A stretch of 64,000 nt of DNA from Demequinaceae bacterium (lineage in GTDB: Bacteria > Actinomycetota > Actinomycetes > Actinomycetales > Demequinaceae). The DNA lies in assembly GCA_016933155.1 (NCBI GenBank), contig JAFGBM010000005.1:62001-126000 (forward strand). Reading direction: 5' to 3'. The notes under the pieces were generated by a model, which saw nothing but the letters and a program-made list of their open reading frames with translations, was not told the DNA's origin and made no database searches. Made by a program: the position numbers and the translations under genes. This document shows positions 24,485 through 35,830 of the stretch, piece by piece. How positions within the stretch are numbered: position 1 is the stretch's first letter; every line of letters begins with the position of its first letter.

Positions 24485-25225
24485 ATGGCGAAGCAATCGA
24501 AAAGGAACCCCGTTTCCACCAGTTCCAACAGTTCCCCCACTTCCAACAGTTCCACCGGTAGCCACAATGGCCACAGTTACGCCATTTCCAACGGTGCCGC
24601 GAATACACTGAGGAAGGCGGGGAAGAACAGGAAGCGACGAGGAGGATCCGTGGACGCGCGAGCGGCTGTGGCCGCACAGCCGAGATTCAACGAGACGAAG
24701 TTCGCCGAGTTGATGCTGTACGTGGCGAAGAAGATGGAGTGCTCTCCTTCGTACGGGGCGACGATTCTGAACAAGGTGTTGTTCTACTCGGACTTCCGTC
24801 ACTACGAGGTGTATGGGTCGTCCATTACGGGGGCGGAGTACCGACGTCGGGAGTTTGGGCCAGCGCCGCACAAGTTGCTTCCGGTTCGGGATGGTCTAGT
24901 CGAGTCGGGGCGGGCGGCGCTTGCGACGAAGTCGGCGGGGCCCAACGGTCACCAGCAGGTGCGCCTGGAAGCGGTGGGGGAGCCGGACTTGTCGCGGTTC
25001 ACGGGCACGGAGATCGCTGTCGTGGACGAGGTGATCGAGTGGTTGTGGGATCAGACGGCCGTGTCTGCGTCGAATCGTTCCCACGAGTTCTTGGGCTGGC
25101 AGTTGGTCGAACCCAACGATCCGATCCCGTATCAGATGGTGTTTCTGCGCAAGACTCCCGTGACGGATAGTGACAGGGAAACGGCGCGGCATGTCGAGAA
25201 GTTGGTTGTCGCGGCGCACGCGTAG
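24485..25225 (+). CDS. Panacea-domain (SocA/DUF4065) antitoxin-like protein
   Basis: A 246-residue protein. Residues 1–60 are low-complexity Ser/Asn/Thr followed by a basic patch (RKAGKNRKRRGG). From about residue 68 on it has the Panacea fold signature: FAELMLYVAKKM, TILNKVLFYSDFRHYEVYGS, ITGAEYRRREFGPAPHKLLP, and the later VVDEVIEWLWDQTAVSASNR. Panacea proteins (PanA) are antitoxins that neutralise very diverse small toxins encoded next door; the 102-residue gene 11 bases downstream is the obvious candidate. AAAGGAGG lies 6 bases before the ATG at 24485, but GTG 24650, also behind GGAGG, would give a 191-residue Panacea core without the repeats. No promoter is evident inside the repeat, so transcription may start in host DNA. 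Confidence 0.82.
   Translation: MAKQSKRNPVSTSSNSSPTSNSSTGSHNGHSYAISNGAANTLRKAGKNRKRRGGSVDARAAVAAQPRFNETKFAELMLYVAKKMECSPSYGATILNKVLFYSDFRHYEVYGSSITGAEYRRREFGPAPHKLLPVRDGLVESGRAALATKSAGPNGHQQVRLEAVGEPDLSRFTGTEIAVVDEVIEWLWDQTAVSASNRSHEFLGWQLVEPNDPIPYQMVFLRKTPVTDSDRETARHVEKLVVAAHA
24514..24558. repeat. Five tandem 9-bp units (TTCCAMCAG-like) near the left transposon end
   Basis: Five consecutive 9-base units begin TTCC: TTCCACCAG, TTCCAACAG, TTCCCCCAC, TTCCAACAG, TTCCACCGG. They start 43 bases inside TIR-L and lie in the 5' part of the Panacea gene, where they encode the Ser/Thr/Asn-rich start. They could be transposase or antitoxin binding sites, or simply a coding repeat. Confidence 0.7.
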
Positions 25226-26773: not shown

Positions 26774-26873
26774 CTCTCGCCCCCTCCAATGGTTGGTGTC
26801 TCAGTCTCGCACCCGCTTGTGACAAGTGGTGGGTCAGGTTGACGGCGCCACCGGGGCGAACGACACTCGGAAC

Positions 26874-27596
26874 ATGTCTGGGATGTGGACCCTGGGTGAG
26901 TGCGCCCACTGTCGTGCCGCGTTGGACCCCGCGAAGCCCTCGTTGTTCTGTTCCGACCGGTGTAGAGACACGGCCAAGGACATCAGGTACTTCCGGCGCT
27001 GCTACCGCGACGGGCGTATCGACGATCCTGGGGTGCGCGCCGCCCTTCGCACACGGATGGCGTTCCACGTCTCAGGCGGATACAACGCCAAGGCACGCCA
27101 CCTGGACGCGGACACACGGCACGCGGTCCTTTCCGCCAACAACGGCTTGTGCGTGAACTGCAACGTCGCTCGAGCGACGCAAGTCGACCACATCGACGGG
27201 CCATCCTCTGACCGGACCAACCTTCAAGGATTGTGCGAGACATGCCACACCAGGAAGACCAACGACCGAATGGTGCCGATGACCGACGAGGACAAGGAGG
27301 TGCGAGACGCCTTCCTTGCGCTGGTCGAACGAGTCGAACCCAAGATGGCTGCCCATGATGAACGTACCTGGGACGGCCGGTGGCGTTCCCTCTTGGCTGA
27401 GACGCGAGAGTGGGCGAGGTCCGAACAGGGGGAGACCTACGTCGGGAAACACGGGTCTTCGAGGGCGGCTTCGACCAAAGAGGGGCTCGAGCAGGATGAT
27501 ACCGACGCCGGCGAATTCGGTGACGGCTCCACCGGGACCGTCGAAGACTATGAGCACGGCGTGTATCTTCAAATGCTCGCTGAACGCGACGACTGA
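26874..27596 (+). CDS. HNH endonuclease with N-terminal zinc finger
   Basis: A 240-residue protein. Near the N-terminus CAHCRAALDPAKPSLFCSDRC forms a zinc-ribbon-like Cys4. The nuclease core at about residues 90–125 reads CVNCNVARATQVDHIDGPSS then NLQGLCETCHTRK: it has the HNH catalytic VDH, the Asn and the final His, stabilised by two CxxC pairs. The C-terminal 100 residues are helical and acidic. HNH proteins of this kind act as nicking or double-strand nucleases in defence or mobile elements. The start is likely ATG 26874, with 26883 as an alternative; an in-frame start at 26826 lacks family-like sequence. Confidence 0.78.
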   Translation: MSGMWTLGECAHCRAALDPAKPSLFCSDRCRDTAKDIRYFRRCYRDGRIDDPGVRAALRTRMAFHVSGGYNAKARHLDADTRHAVLSANNGLCVNCNVARATQVDHIDGPSSDRTNLQGLCETCHTRKTNDRMVPMTDEDKEVRDAFLALVERVEPKMAAHDERTWDGRWRSLLAETREWARSEQGETYVGKHGSSRAASTKEGLEQDDTDAGEFGDGSTGTVEDYEHGVYLQMLAERDD

Positions 27597-28029: not shown

Positions 28030-28947
28030 ATGACCGAGAACGACGAACCTGACGACCTAGGCGATGGCAACGAATCCGCCGAGGAGGGCGTGGTTGACCT
28101 AGCGGGCGAGGTGCGCGATGTAGCCACGTCCGGCTGGCCCTCCGGCTATGTGTACGGCGCGACTCGCTATGCCGACGTGATTCTGCGGCAATCGTTCCCT
28201 GAGCGGTTCGCTGACCTGATCGCGGCGCTCTCGGCCTTCCGGCCGACTCTCACCGAGTTGCGATCCAGCGGTGGCGGTCGCGCCGTGTTCACGAAGCGGT
28301 TTGACGACTCCCTCGCGGCGATGACGTATGCAGGAGAGACGATCTGGGGAAAGCAGAACGTCACCATCGAGAAGGTCGTCGGCCTCGACGGTACGGCGAT
28401 GCGCCGCACGCGCACGCGGGGCCACGAGATTGACATGTTCGGCAAGGGGACGCTCGCCCAGCCGCTGCCCGGTATTGCGGTCGAGATGGAGTGGAACAAC
28501 AAGGACCCCTTCTACGACCGCGACCTCAACAACTTCCAGGCCTTGCACCACGAAGGCGCGATCGCAGTGGGCGTGATCGTCACGCGAGGCCCTGCGTTGC
28601 AGGCGCTGATCGGGATGACCGTGCGGAGCAAGGATGGCGGCTTGAAGTTCGGCCAGTCCAGCACTCACTGGAGCAAGTTGATCCCGAAGGTGAATCTCGG
28701 TGGCGGCGGCGAATGCCCCCTGCTGCTGATCGGCATCGAGCCCGAGCGCATCGACGGCATCGACCTCGCTCGCCAGGTCAAGAGCAAACTCGAAGCGATG
28801 GATGCGACTCAGGGCAAGGGTGTGTGGCGCTCCCACTGGGCCACTTACGAGGCTGCGCAGGCAGCGTGGAAGGCGATGCGCGAGGAGGCCGAGGCGTTGA
28901 TGCCTCCACTCGCAGAGGAGAAATCCGACGACGAGGGCGAGTCGTAA
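28030..28947 (+). CDS. BglII-family type II restriction endonuclease
   Basis: A 305-residue protein whose middle third carries the BglII/BstYI-type nuclease core: GHEIDMFGKG (Asp135) and IAVEMEWNNKDPFYDRDLNN (Glu152 and Glu154), followed by FQALHHEGAIAVGVIVTRG. In BglII the catalytic acids lie in an Asp…ExQ arrangement, so the Asp…ExE here is consistent with metal-dependent DNA cleavage. Family members recognise sites built on GATC, such as AGATCT or RGATCY. The ATG at 28030 gives an acidic N-terminus; the frame extends upstream to 27892 without conserved-looking sequence. The adenine methyltransferase gene follows 74 bases later, with two AGATCT sites between. Confidence 0.8.
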   Translation: MTENDEPDDLGDGNESAEEGVVDLAGEVRDVATSGWPSGYVYGATRYADVILRQSFPERFADLIAALSAFRPTLTELRSSGGGRAVFTKRFDDSLAAMTYAGETIWGKQNVTIEKVVGLDGTAMRRTRTRGHEIDMFGKGTLAQPLPGIAVEMEWNNKDPFYDRDLNNFQALHHEGAIAVGVIVTRGPALQALIGMTVRSKDGGLKFGQSSTHWSKLIPKVNLGGGGECPLLLIGIEPERIDGIDLARQVKSKLEAMDATQGKGVWRSHWATYEAAQAAWKAMREEAEALMPPLAEEKSDDEGES

Positions 28948-28970
28948 CCGCGCGATGTCGGAGGTGCGTG

Positions 28971-29007
28971 CCAAGATCTAATTATCGACCGCTCCCAAGA
29001 TCTAATT
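28971..29007. repeat. Direct repeat with two AGATCT sites before the methyltransferase gene
   Basis: CCAAGATCTAATT occurs twice, at 28971–28983 and 28995–29007, a spacing of 24 bases. Each copy contains the palindrome AGATCT, the recognition sequence of BglII itself. The repeat lies between the BglII-like nuclease gene and the methyltransferase start (29022), where methylation state or a bound protein could set expression. Confidence 0.8.
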
Positions 29008-29021
29008 GGAGACCCACGCGA

Positions 29022-29858
29022 ATGACGATCACCCAACCTTTACGCGAGGAAATGCCCGCCCCTGCTCTGCCCGAAGTCGCGGGCGGGTTCAAGACGGTCC
29101 TTGCCGATCCGCCATGGCGGTTCACGAACCGCACCGGCAAGGTGGCTCCTGAGCATCGGCGACTCGATCGCTACTCAACGATGAGCCTGGACGCGATCTG
29201 CGACCTGCCGGTGAACGACGCGGTGGCGCACGACGCGCACCTGTACCTCTGGGTACCGAATGCGCTCCTGCCTGCGGGTATGCAGGTGATGGAGGCGTGG
29301 GGCTTCCGGTACGTCTCCAACGTCGTCTGGGCGAAGCGACGCAAGGACGGCGGTCCCGACGGGCGCGGCGTCGGGTTCTACTTCCGCAACGTCACCGAGT
29401 TGATTCTGTTCGGCGTGTGTGGCTCCATGCGCACGCTCGCGCCAGCCCGCAGCCAAGTCAACATGATCGAGAGTCGCAAACGCGAGCACTCCCGTAAGCC
29501 CGACGAGCAGTACGAGTTCATCGAACGATGCTCGCCGGGGCCCTACTTGGAAATGTTCGCGCGACATGCGCGGGCGGGCTGGTCGGCTTGGGGTGACGAG
29601 GCGGGAGAGGATGTGGCGCCTCGGGGTCAGGCGCACCGAGGCTACGCGGGCGGCCCGATTGAGGTGCCGCGTCTCTCCCACCATGCCCGTATGACGGACG
29701 GGCAGACCGACGTGATCGGGAACGAACTGCGGCGCCGCTATCACGCGGGCGCGAGTATTCGGGCTATCTCCGAGGAGACCGGCTACTCAATTCAGAGGGT
29801 GCGCAAGCTCCTGCTGTCCTCGGGGATGACCCTTCGGAGCCGAGGCGGTAGCCGCTAG
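29022..29858 (+). CDS. MT-A70 family adenine-N6 DNA methyltransferase with C-terminal HTH
   Basis: A 278-residue protein. The MT-A70 domain (about residues 20–205) has the catalytic DPPW motif (LADPPWRF, Asp29–Trp32), the LYLWVPNALLPAGMQVMEAW segment, the target-side RKREHSRKPDEQYEFIERC block and GPYLEMFARHARAGWSAWGD. The last 45 residues form a helix-turn-helix (LRRRYHAGASIRAISEETGY then SIQRVRKLLLSSG) of a type common in actinobacterial DNA-binding proteins. As the gene after the BglII-like nuclease it is the likely protective methylase, but the Dam-type enzyme at 31.9 kb could also act on GATC. The HTH could add DNA affinity or autoregulation. Confidence 0.85.
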   Translation: MTITQPLREEMPAPALPEVAGGFKTVLADPPWRFTNRTGKVAPEHRRLDRYSTMSLDAICDLPVNDAVAHDAHLYLWVPNALLPAGMQVMEAWGFRYVSNVVWAKRRKDGGPDGRGVGFYFRNVTELILFGVCGSMRTLAPARSQVNMIESRKREHSRKPDEQYEFIERCSPGPYLEMFARHARAGWSAWGDEAGEDVAPRGQAHRGYAGGPIEVPRLSHHARMTDGQTDVIGNELRRRYHAGASIRAISEETGYSIQRVRKLLLSSGMTLRSRGGSR

Positions 29859-31709: not shown

Positions 31710-31922
31710 ATGGCTTCTCTCGTTTCGTTGTCTGACGAGACACTTTCCCGTCGCGCTGACGCGATTCGTCGGGAACGTCTGAGGCGCGCCGGGCGTGAGC
31801 GCCGTTGCGCCCGTTGCGGGGACAGGTTCTACGCTCGGGCTGATGCGATCTACTGCACGGGACGTTGCCGGGTCGCCGCGTTTCGTGTGCGCACAGGCAC
31901 TATCGCGGGGAGGTGGACATGA
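31710..31922 (+). CDS. Small zinc-ribbon protein upstream of Dam
   Basis: A 70-residue basic protein: an Arg-rich helical start (MASLVSLSDETLSRRADAIR) followed by a Cys4 zinc ribbon, RCARCGDRFYARADAIYC then TGRCRVAAFR. The pattern CxxC…CxxxC resembles the small DNA- or RNA-binding zinc proteins seen on plasmids and phages. ATG at 31710 is placed directly at the predicted transcription start, so it is probably translated without a leader. The TGA stop overlaps the ATG of the Dam gene by four bases, so the two proteins are made together. Confidence 0.7.
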   Translation: MASLVSLSDETLSRRADAIRRERLRRAGRERRCARCGDRFYARADAIYCTGRCRVAAFRVRTGTIAGRWT

Positions 31923-32857
31923 GCCAGGCGACTGTTGAGGTCGTGACGGAGGGTCGAAAGCCACGACCGCTCGATGACGGAAGCGTCATCTCGATATCCA
32001 CCACCCGCCGCTACGCGGCCGCGAGTCCCTTGCGCTACCCCGGGGGCAAGGCCGCCCTCGCCGGGTTCTTCAAAGGACTGATCGACGATCTGGGTATCGA
32101 GAACCCGCGTTACGTTGAACCGTTCGCCGGGGGCGTTGGAGCTGGCCTGGCACTGCTCGTCGACGATGCGGTCGCCTCCATCGTCATCAACGACGTTGAT
32201 CCGGCGGTCTTCTCGTTCTGGAGCTCCGTGGTGAACGACACCCAGCGATTCCTTGACCTGGTGGTCGATACGCCGGTGACCATTGACGAGTGGCGCCTCC
32301 AACGCGACACGTACCAACGTGCGGACCGCCGTGACCGGCTCGCCTTGGGGTTCGCGTTCTTCTACCTCAACCGAACGAACCGCTCCGGAATCCTCAATGC
32401 GGGAGTGATCGGCGGGCAAGCCCAAGTGGGCAAGTACCGAATCGGCGCACGGTACTACCGCGACGAATTGGTCCGCCGCATCGAAGCGATCGGCGCCTTG
32501 AGGGACCGCATCACGGTTTCGGATGAGGACGGGGGTGACCTCATCCACTCCCTCGTTGTGGACCCGGGCGCGTTCTTCTACATTGACCCGCCATACGTTC
32601 GGATGGGCGACTCCCTGTACCTGAATGCGTTCAACCTTGAGGACCATGCCAACTTGTCCGAGACGATCAACAGTGCATCGACGTCACATTGGGTGCTGAC
32701 GTACGACATCTCCGACTACGTGCGCGAGCTCTACCAAGATCGGTATATCCGCGAGTTCGAGTTGCAGTACAGCGCCTCACGCGCGGGCATCGCACGCGAA
32801 CTACTGATCTCCTCGCCCTCGGTTGAGGCCGTGCTCCGTGCGCGCGCCAGCCGTTAG
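31919..32857 (+). CDS. Dam-type (D12 class) adenine-N6 DNA methyltransferase
   Basis: A 312-residue enzyme that methylates adenine in DNA using S-adenosylmethionine. The D12/Dam features are all present: LRYPGGKA near residue 38, motif I in RYVEPFAGGVGAGLAL (about 64–79), FFYLNRTNRSGILN (148–161) and the catalytic DPPY in FYIDPPY (Asp223–Tyr226). The usual target of this class is GATC, the core of BglII-family sites, so it may protect the host together with the MT-A70 enzyme. GGGGAGG lies just before the ATG at 31919. The stop overlaps that of the convergent ParB-like gene by two bases. Confidence 0.85.
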   Translation: MSQATVEVVTEGRKPRPLDDGSVISISTTRRYAAASPLRYPGGKAALAGFFKGLIDDLGIENPRYVEPFAGGVGAGLALLVDDAVASIVINDVDPAVFSFWSSVVNDTQRFLDLVVDTPVTIDEWRLQRDTYQRADRRDRLALGFAFFYLNRTNRSGILNAGVIGGQAQVGKYRIGARYYRDELVRRIEAIGALRDRITVSDEDGGDLIHSLVVDPGAFFYIDPPYVRMGDSLYLNAFNLEDHANLSETINSASTSHWVLTYDISDYVRELYQDRYIREFELQYSASRAGIARELLISSPSVEAVLRARASR

Positions 32858-34311
32858 GGCTTCGAGGGAGGCGTCAACAGTACTTTGATGAGGGGAGCCA
32901 TGTGCTCCCACGCGGCGTGAACACCCGGGCCCTCGACGAACACGTCGGGTTCGTGGTTGATCCCGTTGAGGATCCACGCTGACTTGCTGTATTGCGCGGC
33001 CGTCTGCCCAGGCTGAGACAGGTTGTTCAGAACCGAGGTCATGTGCTTGTTCGTCGAGAAGTGGCCGCGGGCTTTGGTGATGCTGTCCATGAGCGTCGAG
33101 CCGGGCTTCAGAGGGTCCTTGAGGTCGCGGAAGTACTGCTTGATGGTGCACTCGAGGACGGAGCGTAGGTGGTCACCGGCCGCGTTGGGAAACCTGGTGA
33201 CATCGATCTCAGCCAACTCTTCGAACCGGCGCCGCAACCCGGGCGACTTCAATGCGCTGTAGTCGACCCCAGCAAGGTTCAGGTACGTGGCGGCGTCACC
33301 GCGCTTGGACCGCGGCTTCTTGCCTGAGGTTGCGCCACCTTGGCCCGTGTCGCTCCCGCCCGCAGATCCGGTCCCGGAGCCAGTCCCGGTACCGTCGGAC
33401 GGTTGCTCCTGCTCACCGCCACTTGCCCCTGGTGCCGGGTTCGTGGCTGAGGGCGCATTGCCGGCAAGGGCGGCAAGTTTCGCCACGTACTCGTTGTACT
33501 CCCTGGACTTCGTCTTGAGTATCGGCGTGCGGGTGTTGAGAATGCCAGCCTTCAAGTCGGCAATCAGGCGCCTGACGACGCGAAGCGCACCGCCTGAGAG
33601 TTTGCGGTTCTTCAGCATCCCATCGGAGTCGTGATCGAGCCCCGCGAGGGCACGGATGGCGGGTTTGCGGTACACGTACTCAAGAGATGAAATCTTGAAG
33701 TCGCTGCTGTGCACGAAGGTGTTCAAGTCGTCGTCGCCGAGGTCAGTCTTCCGCAGAAGCTCGAGGACCTCGCCCATCACAATGAAGCGCTGGATTTGGG
33801 AGGCTTCGGCAGGGTACTCGTCCTTGAGGTCAGACAGCGACGTACCGGGCCCCAATTGGGCGTGGAAGAAGATCGCCTGTTGATCCCGATCCCAGCTCTT
33901 CTTGTTCAAACCGATGTGCAGGCGCGCCAACAGGGGCTGTGCGGCCTCACGCGTCGGTGCCACCATCACACGAATCGTTGTGGGGACCACGGCGGTGCTG
34001 TACTTGGCCACGAGGCGCTCAAGTTCCTTCGTTCGCGCCGGGACAGACGTCGGATCGGTCAACCCCTTGAGCGCGGCAACACGTCGGTTGCCCTCCAAGA
34101 CCGCGAACTTCGCGCCCACCTTGACGACGACGGGAATCTCATTGTCGATGTAACCGTCGCGCAAGAAACTGTGGGCAAGGTCCATCACTTCGTCGGCGGC
34201 GTACAGGTACTTCAGTGCTGCCGCTTCCTTGAGCGTCTCTTCGCGGATGCGCGCGTTATGGAGGTCGAGTTGCAGGTCCTCAACCTTCACTTCCTCGATG
34301 GGCCACACCAT
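32854..34311 (-). CDS. ParB/Srx-domain protein with long C-terminal region
   Basis: A 485-residue protein. Residues 1–140 form a ParB-like N-terminal domain with the nucleotide-binding box FAVLEGNRRVAALKGL (Glu73–Arg77). The middle is helical (LGPGTSLSDLKDEYPAEASQ), then comes a low-complexity Gly/Ser/Thr linker with basic KKPRSKRG at about 305–350, then a helical C-terminal domain with RSVLECTIKQYFRDLKD and SAWILNGINHEPDVFV. ParB-box proteins act as CTP switches in plasmid partition, but many defence-island versions exist; this one has no ParA partner. GGAG lies 7 bases before ATG 34311. The C-terminal part resembles helical HEPN-like regions, but no RxxxxH motif is seen. Confidence 0.72.
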   Translation of the reverse strand: MVWPIEEVKVEDLQLDLHNARIREETLKEAAALKYLYAADEVMDLAHSFLRDGYIDNEIPVVVKVGAKFAVLEGNRRVAALKGLTDPTSVPARTKELERLVAKYSTAVVPTTIRVMVAPTREAAQPLLARLHIGLNKKSWDRDQQAIFFHAQLGPGTSLSDLKDEYPAEASQIQRFIVMGEVLELLRKTDLGDDDLNTFVHSSDFKISSLEYVYRKPAIRALAGLDHDSDGMLKNRKLSGGALRVVRRLIADLKAGILNTRTPILKTKSREYNEYVAKLAALAGNAPSATNPAPGASGGEQEQPSDGTGTGSGTGSAGGSDTGQGGATSGKKPRSKRGDAATYLNLAGVDYSALKSPGLRRRFEELAEIDVTRFPNAAGDHLRSVLECTIKQYFRDLKDPLKPGSTLMDSITKARGHFSTNKHMTSVLNNLSQPGQTAAQYSKSAWILNGINHEPDVFVEGPGVHAAWEHMAPLIKVLLTPPSKP

Positions 34312-34344
34312 GGTCGCTCCAAGTCGCCTAGTAGCACGGCCCCC

Positions 34345-34390
34345 GAGCAAACAAGAGCCGCAACGCACTGCGGGGGCCACCGTGCGGCTC
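34345..34390 (-). terminator. Hairpin with T-rich tail after the transposase gene
   Basis: Read on the minus strand, GAGCCGC (34390–34384) pairs with GCGGCTC (34361–34355) and is followed by TTGTTTGCTC. This looks like an intrinsic terminator about 110 bases after the transposase stop and just upstream of the ParB-like gene, separating transposase transcription from the cargo. Confidence 0.55.
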
Positions 34391-34503: not shown

Positions 34504-35496
34504 TCAGGCGACACCGGGAATCGGCCGGTACGTGAGACGGCGGCCGTCGACGTTGTTGATGAGCATCCGCAAACGTTCACTGTCACTCTTGCGGCAGTTC
34601 GTGGCCAGCCACGCGAATTGCTCCAAGTAGCGGTCCAAGTGCCACAGGGACACGTGATGGTGGGTGCCATCGAGTGACCGCTTGAGTTGGGAGAAGAACC
34701 CTTCGGCGGCGTTCGTCGTCGCCCCACCGCGCACCTTGTACTGACCCGCTTTGTGGTTCACGGCTTCGTGGTCGGCGAACTCGGGGGCGAGTTGCCGGTA
34801 GTAACCTGCCGAGTCGGTCCACAAGTGGGTGTTCGGCACGTCAATGTGACGTCCGAGTTGACGACGGAGGTTCTTGCCCGTGACGTCCACGATGCTCATG
34901 GCCCGAACCTCACGGGTCTCATGGTGCACCAACGCCAACACGGGGATCTTGTCCGTCCCACCGAAGGGCCCGCGTGGCTTCACCCGAGGGCCTGACCGGT
35001 GACGGTTCTTCGGATCCCCACCGATCCATGTCTCATCCGCGATCACCGTCCTCCGAAGCAAGCCCGCGACGGGTTCTCGTTTCATCGCTTCCCGAATCCT
35101 GTGGAGCATGTGCCACGCCGACTCGTTCGTGATCCCGTACTTGCGGGACACCTCCCACGCTGACACGCCGTTCTTCGCCGAACACATGTCGAAGATCACG
35201 AGGACCCATGTGCGCAACGGAATCCGCGTCCCATGGAAGATCGTGTTCGTCAGCACCGAGAACTGCCTCCTGCACGACGCGCACTTCCACAGACGCCGCT
35301 CCGTCCTCGAACCCGTGCGAGTTCTCCGAGTCTCACCATTCGCCGGCTTCAAGAAGTAGAACTTCCCCACCACCCCACACAACGGGCACGCCTGCGGTTC
35401 CCCACCCCAACGCAACTCCTCCAGGAAACGGTAAGCGTCGGCCTCCGTCTTCAGACGAGCCGCCAACTTCGGGACCGAGAACTCCTGCTTCTCCAT
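34504..35496 (-). CDS. IS1595-family (ISXO2-like) transposase
   Basis: A 330-residue DDE transposase. It begins with a zinc ribbon (CPLC at 37–40 and CASC at 72–75), then the catalytic core with first Asp154 in VIADETWIGG, second Asp228 in LWTDSAGYY, and Glu265 in the TTNAAEGFFSQLKR motif that marks the ISXO2/IS1595 group. All residues and the full length are present, so it should be active. Start is ATG 35496, with a weak GAAGG site; ATG 35520 would add eight residues and sit exactly at the internal terminal-repeat-like sequence. It is the only transposase in the element. Confidence 0.93.
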   Translation of the reverse strand: MEKQEFSVPKLAARLKTEADAYRFLEELRWGGEPQACPLCGVVGKFYFLKPANGETRRTRTGSRTERRLWKCASCRRQFSVLTNTIFHGTRIPLRTWVLVIFDMCSAKNGVSAWEVSRKYGITNESAWHMLHRIREAMKREPVAGLLRRTVIADETWIGGDPKNRHRSGPRVKPRGPFGGTDKIPVLALVHHETREVRAMSIVDVTGKNLRRQLGRHIDVPNTHLWTDSAGYYRQLAPEFADHEAVNHKAGQYKVRGGATTNAAEGFFSQLKRSLDGTHHHVSLWHLDRYLEQFAWLATNCRKSDSERLRMLINNVDGRRLTYRPIPGVA

Positions 35497-35519
35497 ACCT
35501 TCATTGTCCCAAGAATCCA

Positions 35520-35544
35520 TGGGTGTGTCAATCCGCAGTCCGAT
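35520..35544 (+). repeat. Degenerate third copy of the terminal repeat at the transposase 5' end
   Basis: These 25 bases start TGGGTGTGTCA, the same 11 bases that open the inner end of the right terminal repeat, and match it at 17 of 25 positions in the same orientation. It covers the possible alternative start codon of the transposase. It could be an older right end of the element or a site where the transposase controls its own promoter. Confidence 0.7.
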
Positions 35545-35647
35545 GATCCTTGACCTGACTGGCGGGGCACGGAAAAGACCATCGTGGCCCGACCGCCGGG
35601 CCCTCTTCTCATAGCCCGCGCCCCACCCTTCGCCGGGAGTTGCCCTC

Positions 35648-35830
35648 CTACACCATCTCGCCGAGGCCCTTCTCTCCCGTGTTGCTGCCACACTTCGCGT
35701 TCGGGCACTTCCGGTCCCACACGACCGGGGCGGGGCCACCCGCGAGCGGACGCTCGGCTGGCAGACTCCGGCGGATCTTCTTCACGCCGTCGGAACCGCA
35801 AATACGACAGGGGCCTTCGTAGTCGTCCAT
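35648..35830 (-). CDS. Small zinc-ribbon protein at the right transposon end
   Basis: A 60-residue protein, MDDYEGPCRICGSDGVKKIR at its start and CPNAKCGSN near its end. CxxC plus CxxxxC suggests a single structural zinc ribbon. An AAAGGAC sequence lies 7 bases before the ATG at 35830, and the frame is free of stops at host-like codon use, so it looks real. It sits between the internal repeat copy and TIR-R and is transcribed toward the transposase. Function unknown; small zinc proteins of this type are frequent on mobile elements. Confidence 0.6.
   Translation of the reverse strand: MDDYEGPCRICGSDGVKKIRRSLPAERPLAGGPAPVVWDRKCPNAKCGSNTGEKGLGEMV

Follow-up and report, generated by a model that had tools for sequence, protein, structure and literature searches.

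The window analysed here, meaning the whole stretch of 64,000 nucleotides from a Demequinaceae bacterium, carries a restriction endonuclease gene and an MT-A70 methylase gene in tandem, with a pair of repeats in the gap between them. The features of the locus are as follows:

28030–28947, plus strand: BglII/BstYI-family restriction endonuclease, 305 aa (Pfam Endonuc-BglII, PF09195, 4.6e-27)
28948–29021, no strand assigned: 74-bp intergenic gap, presumed to be the control region of the methylase
28971–28983, plus strand: repeat copy 1, CCAAGATCTAATT, with the element AAGATCTAATT; AGATCT at 28974–28979
28995–29007, plus strand: repeat copy 2, CCAAGATCTAATT, with the element AAGATCTAATT; AGATCT at 28998–29003; its end lies 14 bp 5' of the methylase start
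29022–29858, plus strand: MT-A70 DNA methylase, 278 aa (PF05063, 6.9e-27), with a DPPW motif at aa 29–32
29676–29852, plus strand: C-terminal HTH_58 domain of the methylase, aa 219–277 (PF19575, 4.9e-12), presumed to bind the operator

Analysis of the nuclease confirmed the predicted catalytic core of Asp135, Glu152, and Glu154, through both the PF09195 match and the absence of any variation at these residues across 35 of 35 aligned nuclease sequences. The AlphaFold2 model of the nuclease (pLDDT 87) has BstYI as its top fold match (E about 1e-5), followed by BamHI and OkrAI. The MT-A70 methylase expected 3' of the nuclease is present, and an MT-A70 methylase adjoins the BglII-type nuclease in most homologous loci. 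From these sequence features, the locus is most likely a Type II restriction-modification system of the BglII/BstYI family. Other genes of interest lie on both sides. To the left of the nuclease are a SocA/Panacea-domain protein (24485–25225, plus strand) and a weak HNH protein (26826–27596, plus strand) whose match falls under the Pfam cut-off. A second candidate defence system (31865–34380) adjoins the BglII/MT-A70 pair and consists of a Dam-like adenine methylase (31865–32857, plus strand; PADLOC model PD-Lambda-5_B) and, facing it, a 508-aa protein (32854–34380, minus strand; PADLOC model PD-Lambda-5_A), with an IS1595-type transposase gene (34504–35739) to the right of the defence genes.

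The C-terminal HTH_58 domain of the methylase, which the original prediction did not mention, is the sole HTH_58 match in the 1.89-Mb genome. This helix-turn-helix is placed at the C-terminus, not at the N-terminus as in the EcoRII/SsoII-type enzymes. The fusion of MT-A70 and HTH_58 is not new as such, since PADLOC already includes a methylase model covering the fused protein. The structure model of the methylase was poor (pLDDT 65.7) and was excluded from the analysis. A scan of the neighbouring ORFs gave no HTH family match that would indicate a separate small controller gene of the C-protein type, and the 74-bp gap is too short to hold one.

The direct repeat announced for this gap is indeed there: CCAAGATCTAATT occurs in two exact copies 24 bp apart, which places two AGATCT sites 23–48 bp upstream of the methylase start codon. 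The window as a whole shows no excess of AGATCT (10 sites versus 12.0 expected), and the twin-site pattern occurs only once in the genome. A 13-mer repeated within 74 bp is uncommon, arising at a mean of 0.27 per Markov-1 window, and the real window has a few others; because other close 13-mer repeats do occur there, the repeat taken alone is suggestive evidence of function. The gap contains no match to an E. coli-type promoter, and no RNA structure exceeding that of shuffled sequences was detected in the gap or leader. The decisive evidence for the twin sites as putative control elements is their conservation in relatives.

Relatives were collected by scanning species genomes together with viral, phage, and plasmid collections, and methylases bearing HTH_58 were picked with an HMM built from the tail alone. 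BglII/MT-A70 pairs proved to be numerous and mostly convergent. An upstream pair was scored when at least two RGATCY sites, 12–24 bp apart, lay no more than 130 bp upstream of the methylase. In a first set of non-redundant methylases, such a pair was present in 16 of 16 with HTH_58 and in none of 126 without it (Fisher 8e-22), the latter including one locus (L087) truncated at the end of its contig, where the tail region is not visible. Markov shuffles of this set yielded an expected 0.09 of 16, and AGATCT was the commonest palindrome in the set. In a second set, gathered later from plasmids and from the order to which the window belongs, 13 further methylases had HTH_58, and all 13 had the pair. 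This set also included one family of close relatives (L222–L228) in which the methylase stops before HTH_58 and no BglII-type nuclease was detected in the stretch examined; the pair was kept in three of these seven (L223, L224, and L226), which shows that the twin sites can exist without the tail, and was missing in four. For both sets together, the pair accompanies 29 of 29 methylases with HTH_58 versus 3 of 133 without it.

Comparison of gene layouts revealed twin sites in front of the methylase whether the two genes are tandem, convergent, or divergent, and also where the neighbour is a divergent nuclease or an AAA ATPase. In the loci L231–L234 on actinobacterial plasmids, the gene next to the HTH_58 methylase encodes an AAA_5 ATPase in place of a BglII-type nuclease, yet the RGATCY pair is retained. 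It is thus with the methylase and its tail, not with the nuclease, that the sites travel. We rejected a tie to the nuclease on these grounds and because most BglII/MT-A70 pairs have neither the HTH_58 tail nor the twin sites. The placement of the twin sites in the presumed methylase control region is supported, the pair lying upstream in every HTH_58-bearing homologue. The further expectation that they would persist in homologous pairs held for all loci with HTH_58 and failed for most BglII/MT-A70 pairs without the tail; homologues devoid of the twin sites belong almost exclusively to the tail-less subfamily.

The HTH_58 subfamily is spread over Actinobacteria, a Chloroflexia MAG, alphaproteobacterial plasmids, and viral contigs. 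In the phylogeny, the HTH_58 methylases account for the majority of a single clade, where several losses seem to have occurred. Only two well-supported independent contrasts are available, so a correlated-change or sign test has no power. The main argument for selection is instead that the sites are kept despite changes in spacing, orientation, and gene order.

Two observations were made among loci without HTH_58 on the methylase. In Blastococcus mobilis (L039, reverse strand), an HTH_58 stretch follows the methylase stop directly in another frame, and no twin sites are present. In four Sphingomonadales loci (L062, L064, L068, and L069), a single AGATCT lies near the start of the HTH_58-less methylase; over all HTH_58-less loci there was no enrichment of AGATCT.

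Alignment of the 59 conserved sites upstream of HTH_58 methylases showed 42 AGATCT, 17 AGATCC, and nothing else, a conservation of the hexamer that is partly by construction because the search used RGATCY, the locus count being unaffected. When co-oriented, the 59 sites give the consensus AAGATCYANTT, with asymmetry outside the hexamer; individual copies of the element face either way, and the two copies of a pair, 12–24 bp apart, point in the same direction, toward each other, or away from each other. The flanks differ from those of other RGATCY sites in the same loci with a p-value of 3e-24, which is optimistic because those very sites were used to learn the scoring weights. The complete AAGATCYANTT is matched exactly at 19 of the 59 sites versus 0 of 106 control sites. 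The occurrence of the element in both orientations favours a bound protein over a promoter box, and a −10 box behind the conserved ANTT flank was disfavoured on the same ground. A sister clade, mostly Acidimicrobiia (L016–L034, L089, and L162), has an XRE-like helix-turn-helix, assigned by eye and pattern, at the N-terminus of its MT-A70 frames. Most of its members have an upstream palindrome, CGTAACnCnnnTGTTACG, which is free of GATC and forms a second operator-like element, indicating that an operator need not equal the target.

The nearest characterised relative of the window methylase is M.Nph3I (65.5% identity over 193 aa), and R.Nph3I shares 34.8% identity with the window nuclease. In the Nitratiruptor phage NrS-3, this pair was found experimentally to cleave at RGATCY and to produce RG(m6A)TCY (PMC10734518), and in Acinetobacter baumannii A118 a BglII/BstYI-family nuclease and an adenine methylase are linked to m6A at RGATCY (PMC10287943). 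By analogy, the window system very probably cuts and N6-adenine-methylates RGATCY, AGATCT included; RGATCY is preferred over AGATCT alone because the Nph3I pair has that target and the Acinetobacter system is linked to it. Adenine methylation of GATC, the core common to RGATCY, is also the activity of E. coli Dam. The original prediction of AGATCT or a relaxed form as the target agrees with RG(m6A)TCY methylation by the Nph3I pair and with the 59 of 59 sites that read AGATCT or AGATCC. Strict BglII-type specificity for AGATCT is disfavoured by the RGATCY specificity of M.Nph3I, by the AGATCC sites among the operators, and by a fold nearest to BstYI. Target avoidance was set aside as evidence of specificity, being weak and inconsistent between genomes: in 418 kb sampled from the window genome, AGATCT is slightly avoided (69 versus 88.7 expected, rank 17 of 64 palindromes) and GGATCC is not, and the results for AGATCT in two mycobacteria contradict each other.

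On balance, we favour a self-regulating RGATCY methylase whose HTH_58 domain acts on twin operators, with repression that is probably tuned by methylation. Its parts differ in strength. Binding of HTH_58 to the twin sites is likely from the sequence conservation, repression by the methylase of its own gene is a reasonable though less secure expectation, and on the dependence of this repression on methylation the case is evenly balanced. HTH_58 would bind both AAGATCYANTT copies lying immediately 5' of the methylase start codon and repress transcription. In a new, unmethylated host, the promoter would be open and methylase would be made; once the sites are methylated and the methylase is abundant, its gene would be turned down. 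Binding is probably tuned by methylation because each operator copy holds the target of the methylase itself. A more tentative extension, which we regard as possible rather than probable, is that the methylase gene serves as a gauge of genome methylation, with the operator as the enzyme's own substrate. HTH_58 would then distinguish methylated from unmethylated AAGATCYANTT, unmethylated targets elsewhere would compete for the methylase protein, and methylase output would follow the number of unprotected sites, at first entry or after each replication.

The best-surviving alternative, which we consider unlikely, shares the first two steps: HTH_58 would occupy the twin sites and repress the gene, but whether the embedded GATC is methylated would make no difference, and the operator would look like the target because a domain with a similar sequence preference had been recruited. 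The tight link between HTH_58 and the sites and the extended, asymmetric element would fit this reading, as would the sister clade, where an N-terminal XRE-type helix-turn-helix accompanies a GATC-free palindrome. Some dual-function methylases, moreover, repress without need of catalysis (PMC12707154), and repression by Ecl18kI, and probably by SsoII, is reviewed as methylation-independent. Against it, the paired sites stay RGATCY in 29 of 29 loci (last base T in 42, C in 17, never A or G), a constancy that would follow from a second role of both sites as methylation targets; a binding motif with Y at its last base would give the same picture. A second alternative, which we judge improbable, is that methylation of the sites affects only RNA polymerase, the mode of control in CfrBI, LlaDII, and AhdI, and that HTH_58 serves otherwise, for example in target finding. 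Retention of the pair in three HTH_58-less relatives is compatible with it, and there are precedents for promoter-site methylation that needs no operator protein (PMC12707154); but the pair is missing in 126 of 126 HTH_58-less methylases of the first set and in four of seven of the second, and the conserved flank in both orientations points to a bound protein. That the repeat is a functionless product of chance or of recent tandem duplication, as the few other close 13-mer repeats in the window might suggest, was rejected as having a negligible probability, given a pair conserved in 29 of 29 HTH_58-bearing homologues with varied spacing and orientation.

How a restriction-modification system supplies its methylase early enough on entering a new host, yet avoids a later excess, is a long-standing question. 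The methylation-tuned operator reading would offer a whole subfamily with a simple design, in which the operator-like element contains the enzyme's own probable target, and it provides a rule for recognising putative self-regulating RGATCY methylases from raw sequence. Taken with the sister clade, it suggests that helix-turn-helix regulators were added to MT-A70 methylases in two forms, an N-terminal XRE-type domain and a C-terminal HTH_58.

Comparison with known systems places the locus closest to R/M.Nph3I, which likewise has an Endonuc-BglII nuclease adjoining an MT-A70 methylase in tandem genes; the M.Nph3I frame, however, is 210 aa and lacks both the HTH_58 tail and the upstream RGATCY pair. 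The nuclease shares family and fold with BglII and with BstYI, the RGATCY enzyme that is its top structural match, although a weak profile alignment (E 0.5) sets E-x-E of the nuclease family opposite E-x-Q of BstYI. In BglII and BstYI themselves, the partner methylase acts on N4 of cytosine and does not belong to MT-A70. The Acinetobacter baumannii A118 system differs in having a DNA adenine methylase gene and a separate helix-turn-helix regulator gene (PMC10287943). In CfrBI, LlaDII, and AhdI, control operates through methylation of promoter sites (PMC12707154); like them, the window system has copies of its probable target within the presumed promoter region of the methylase, whereas the reviews describe no operator-binding tail for them comparable to HTH_58. 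The dual-function methylases EcoRII, Ecl18kI, SsoII, MspI, and ScrFI are proposed to repress themselves at an upstream operator (PMC12707154), and EcoRII repression requires methylated sites (PMC12707154; PMC3874152). The window methylase resembles the EcoRII type in being fused to a helix-turn-helix and in having a conserved operator-like element upstream. It differs in that their helix-turn-helix is N-terminal according to the reviews, while HTH_58 is C-terminal on MT-A70, and in that its operator-like element itself holds the probable target. Dual-function methylases and promoter-site methylation are thus already known in kind, and a C-terminal HTH_58 on MT-A70 combined with a conserved, target-containing operator-like element appears to be a new variant in the open-access literature searched.
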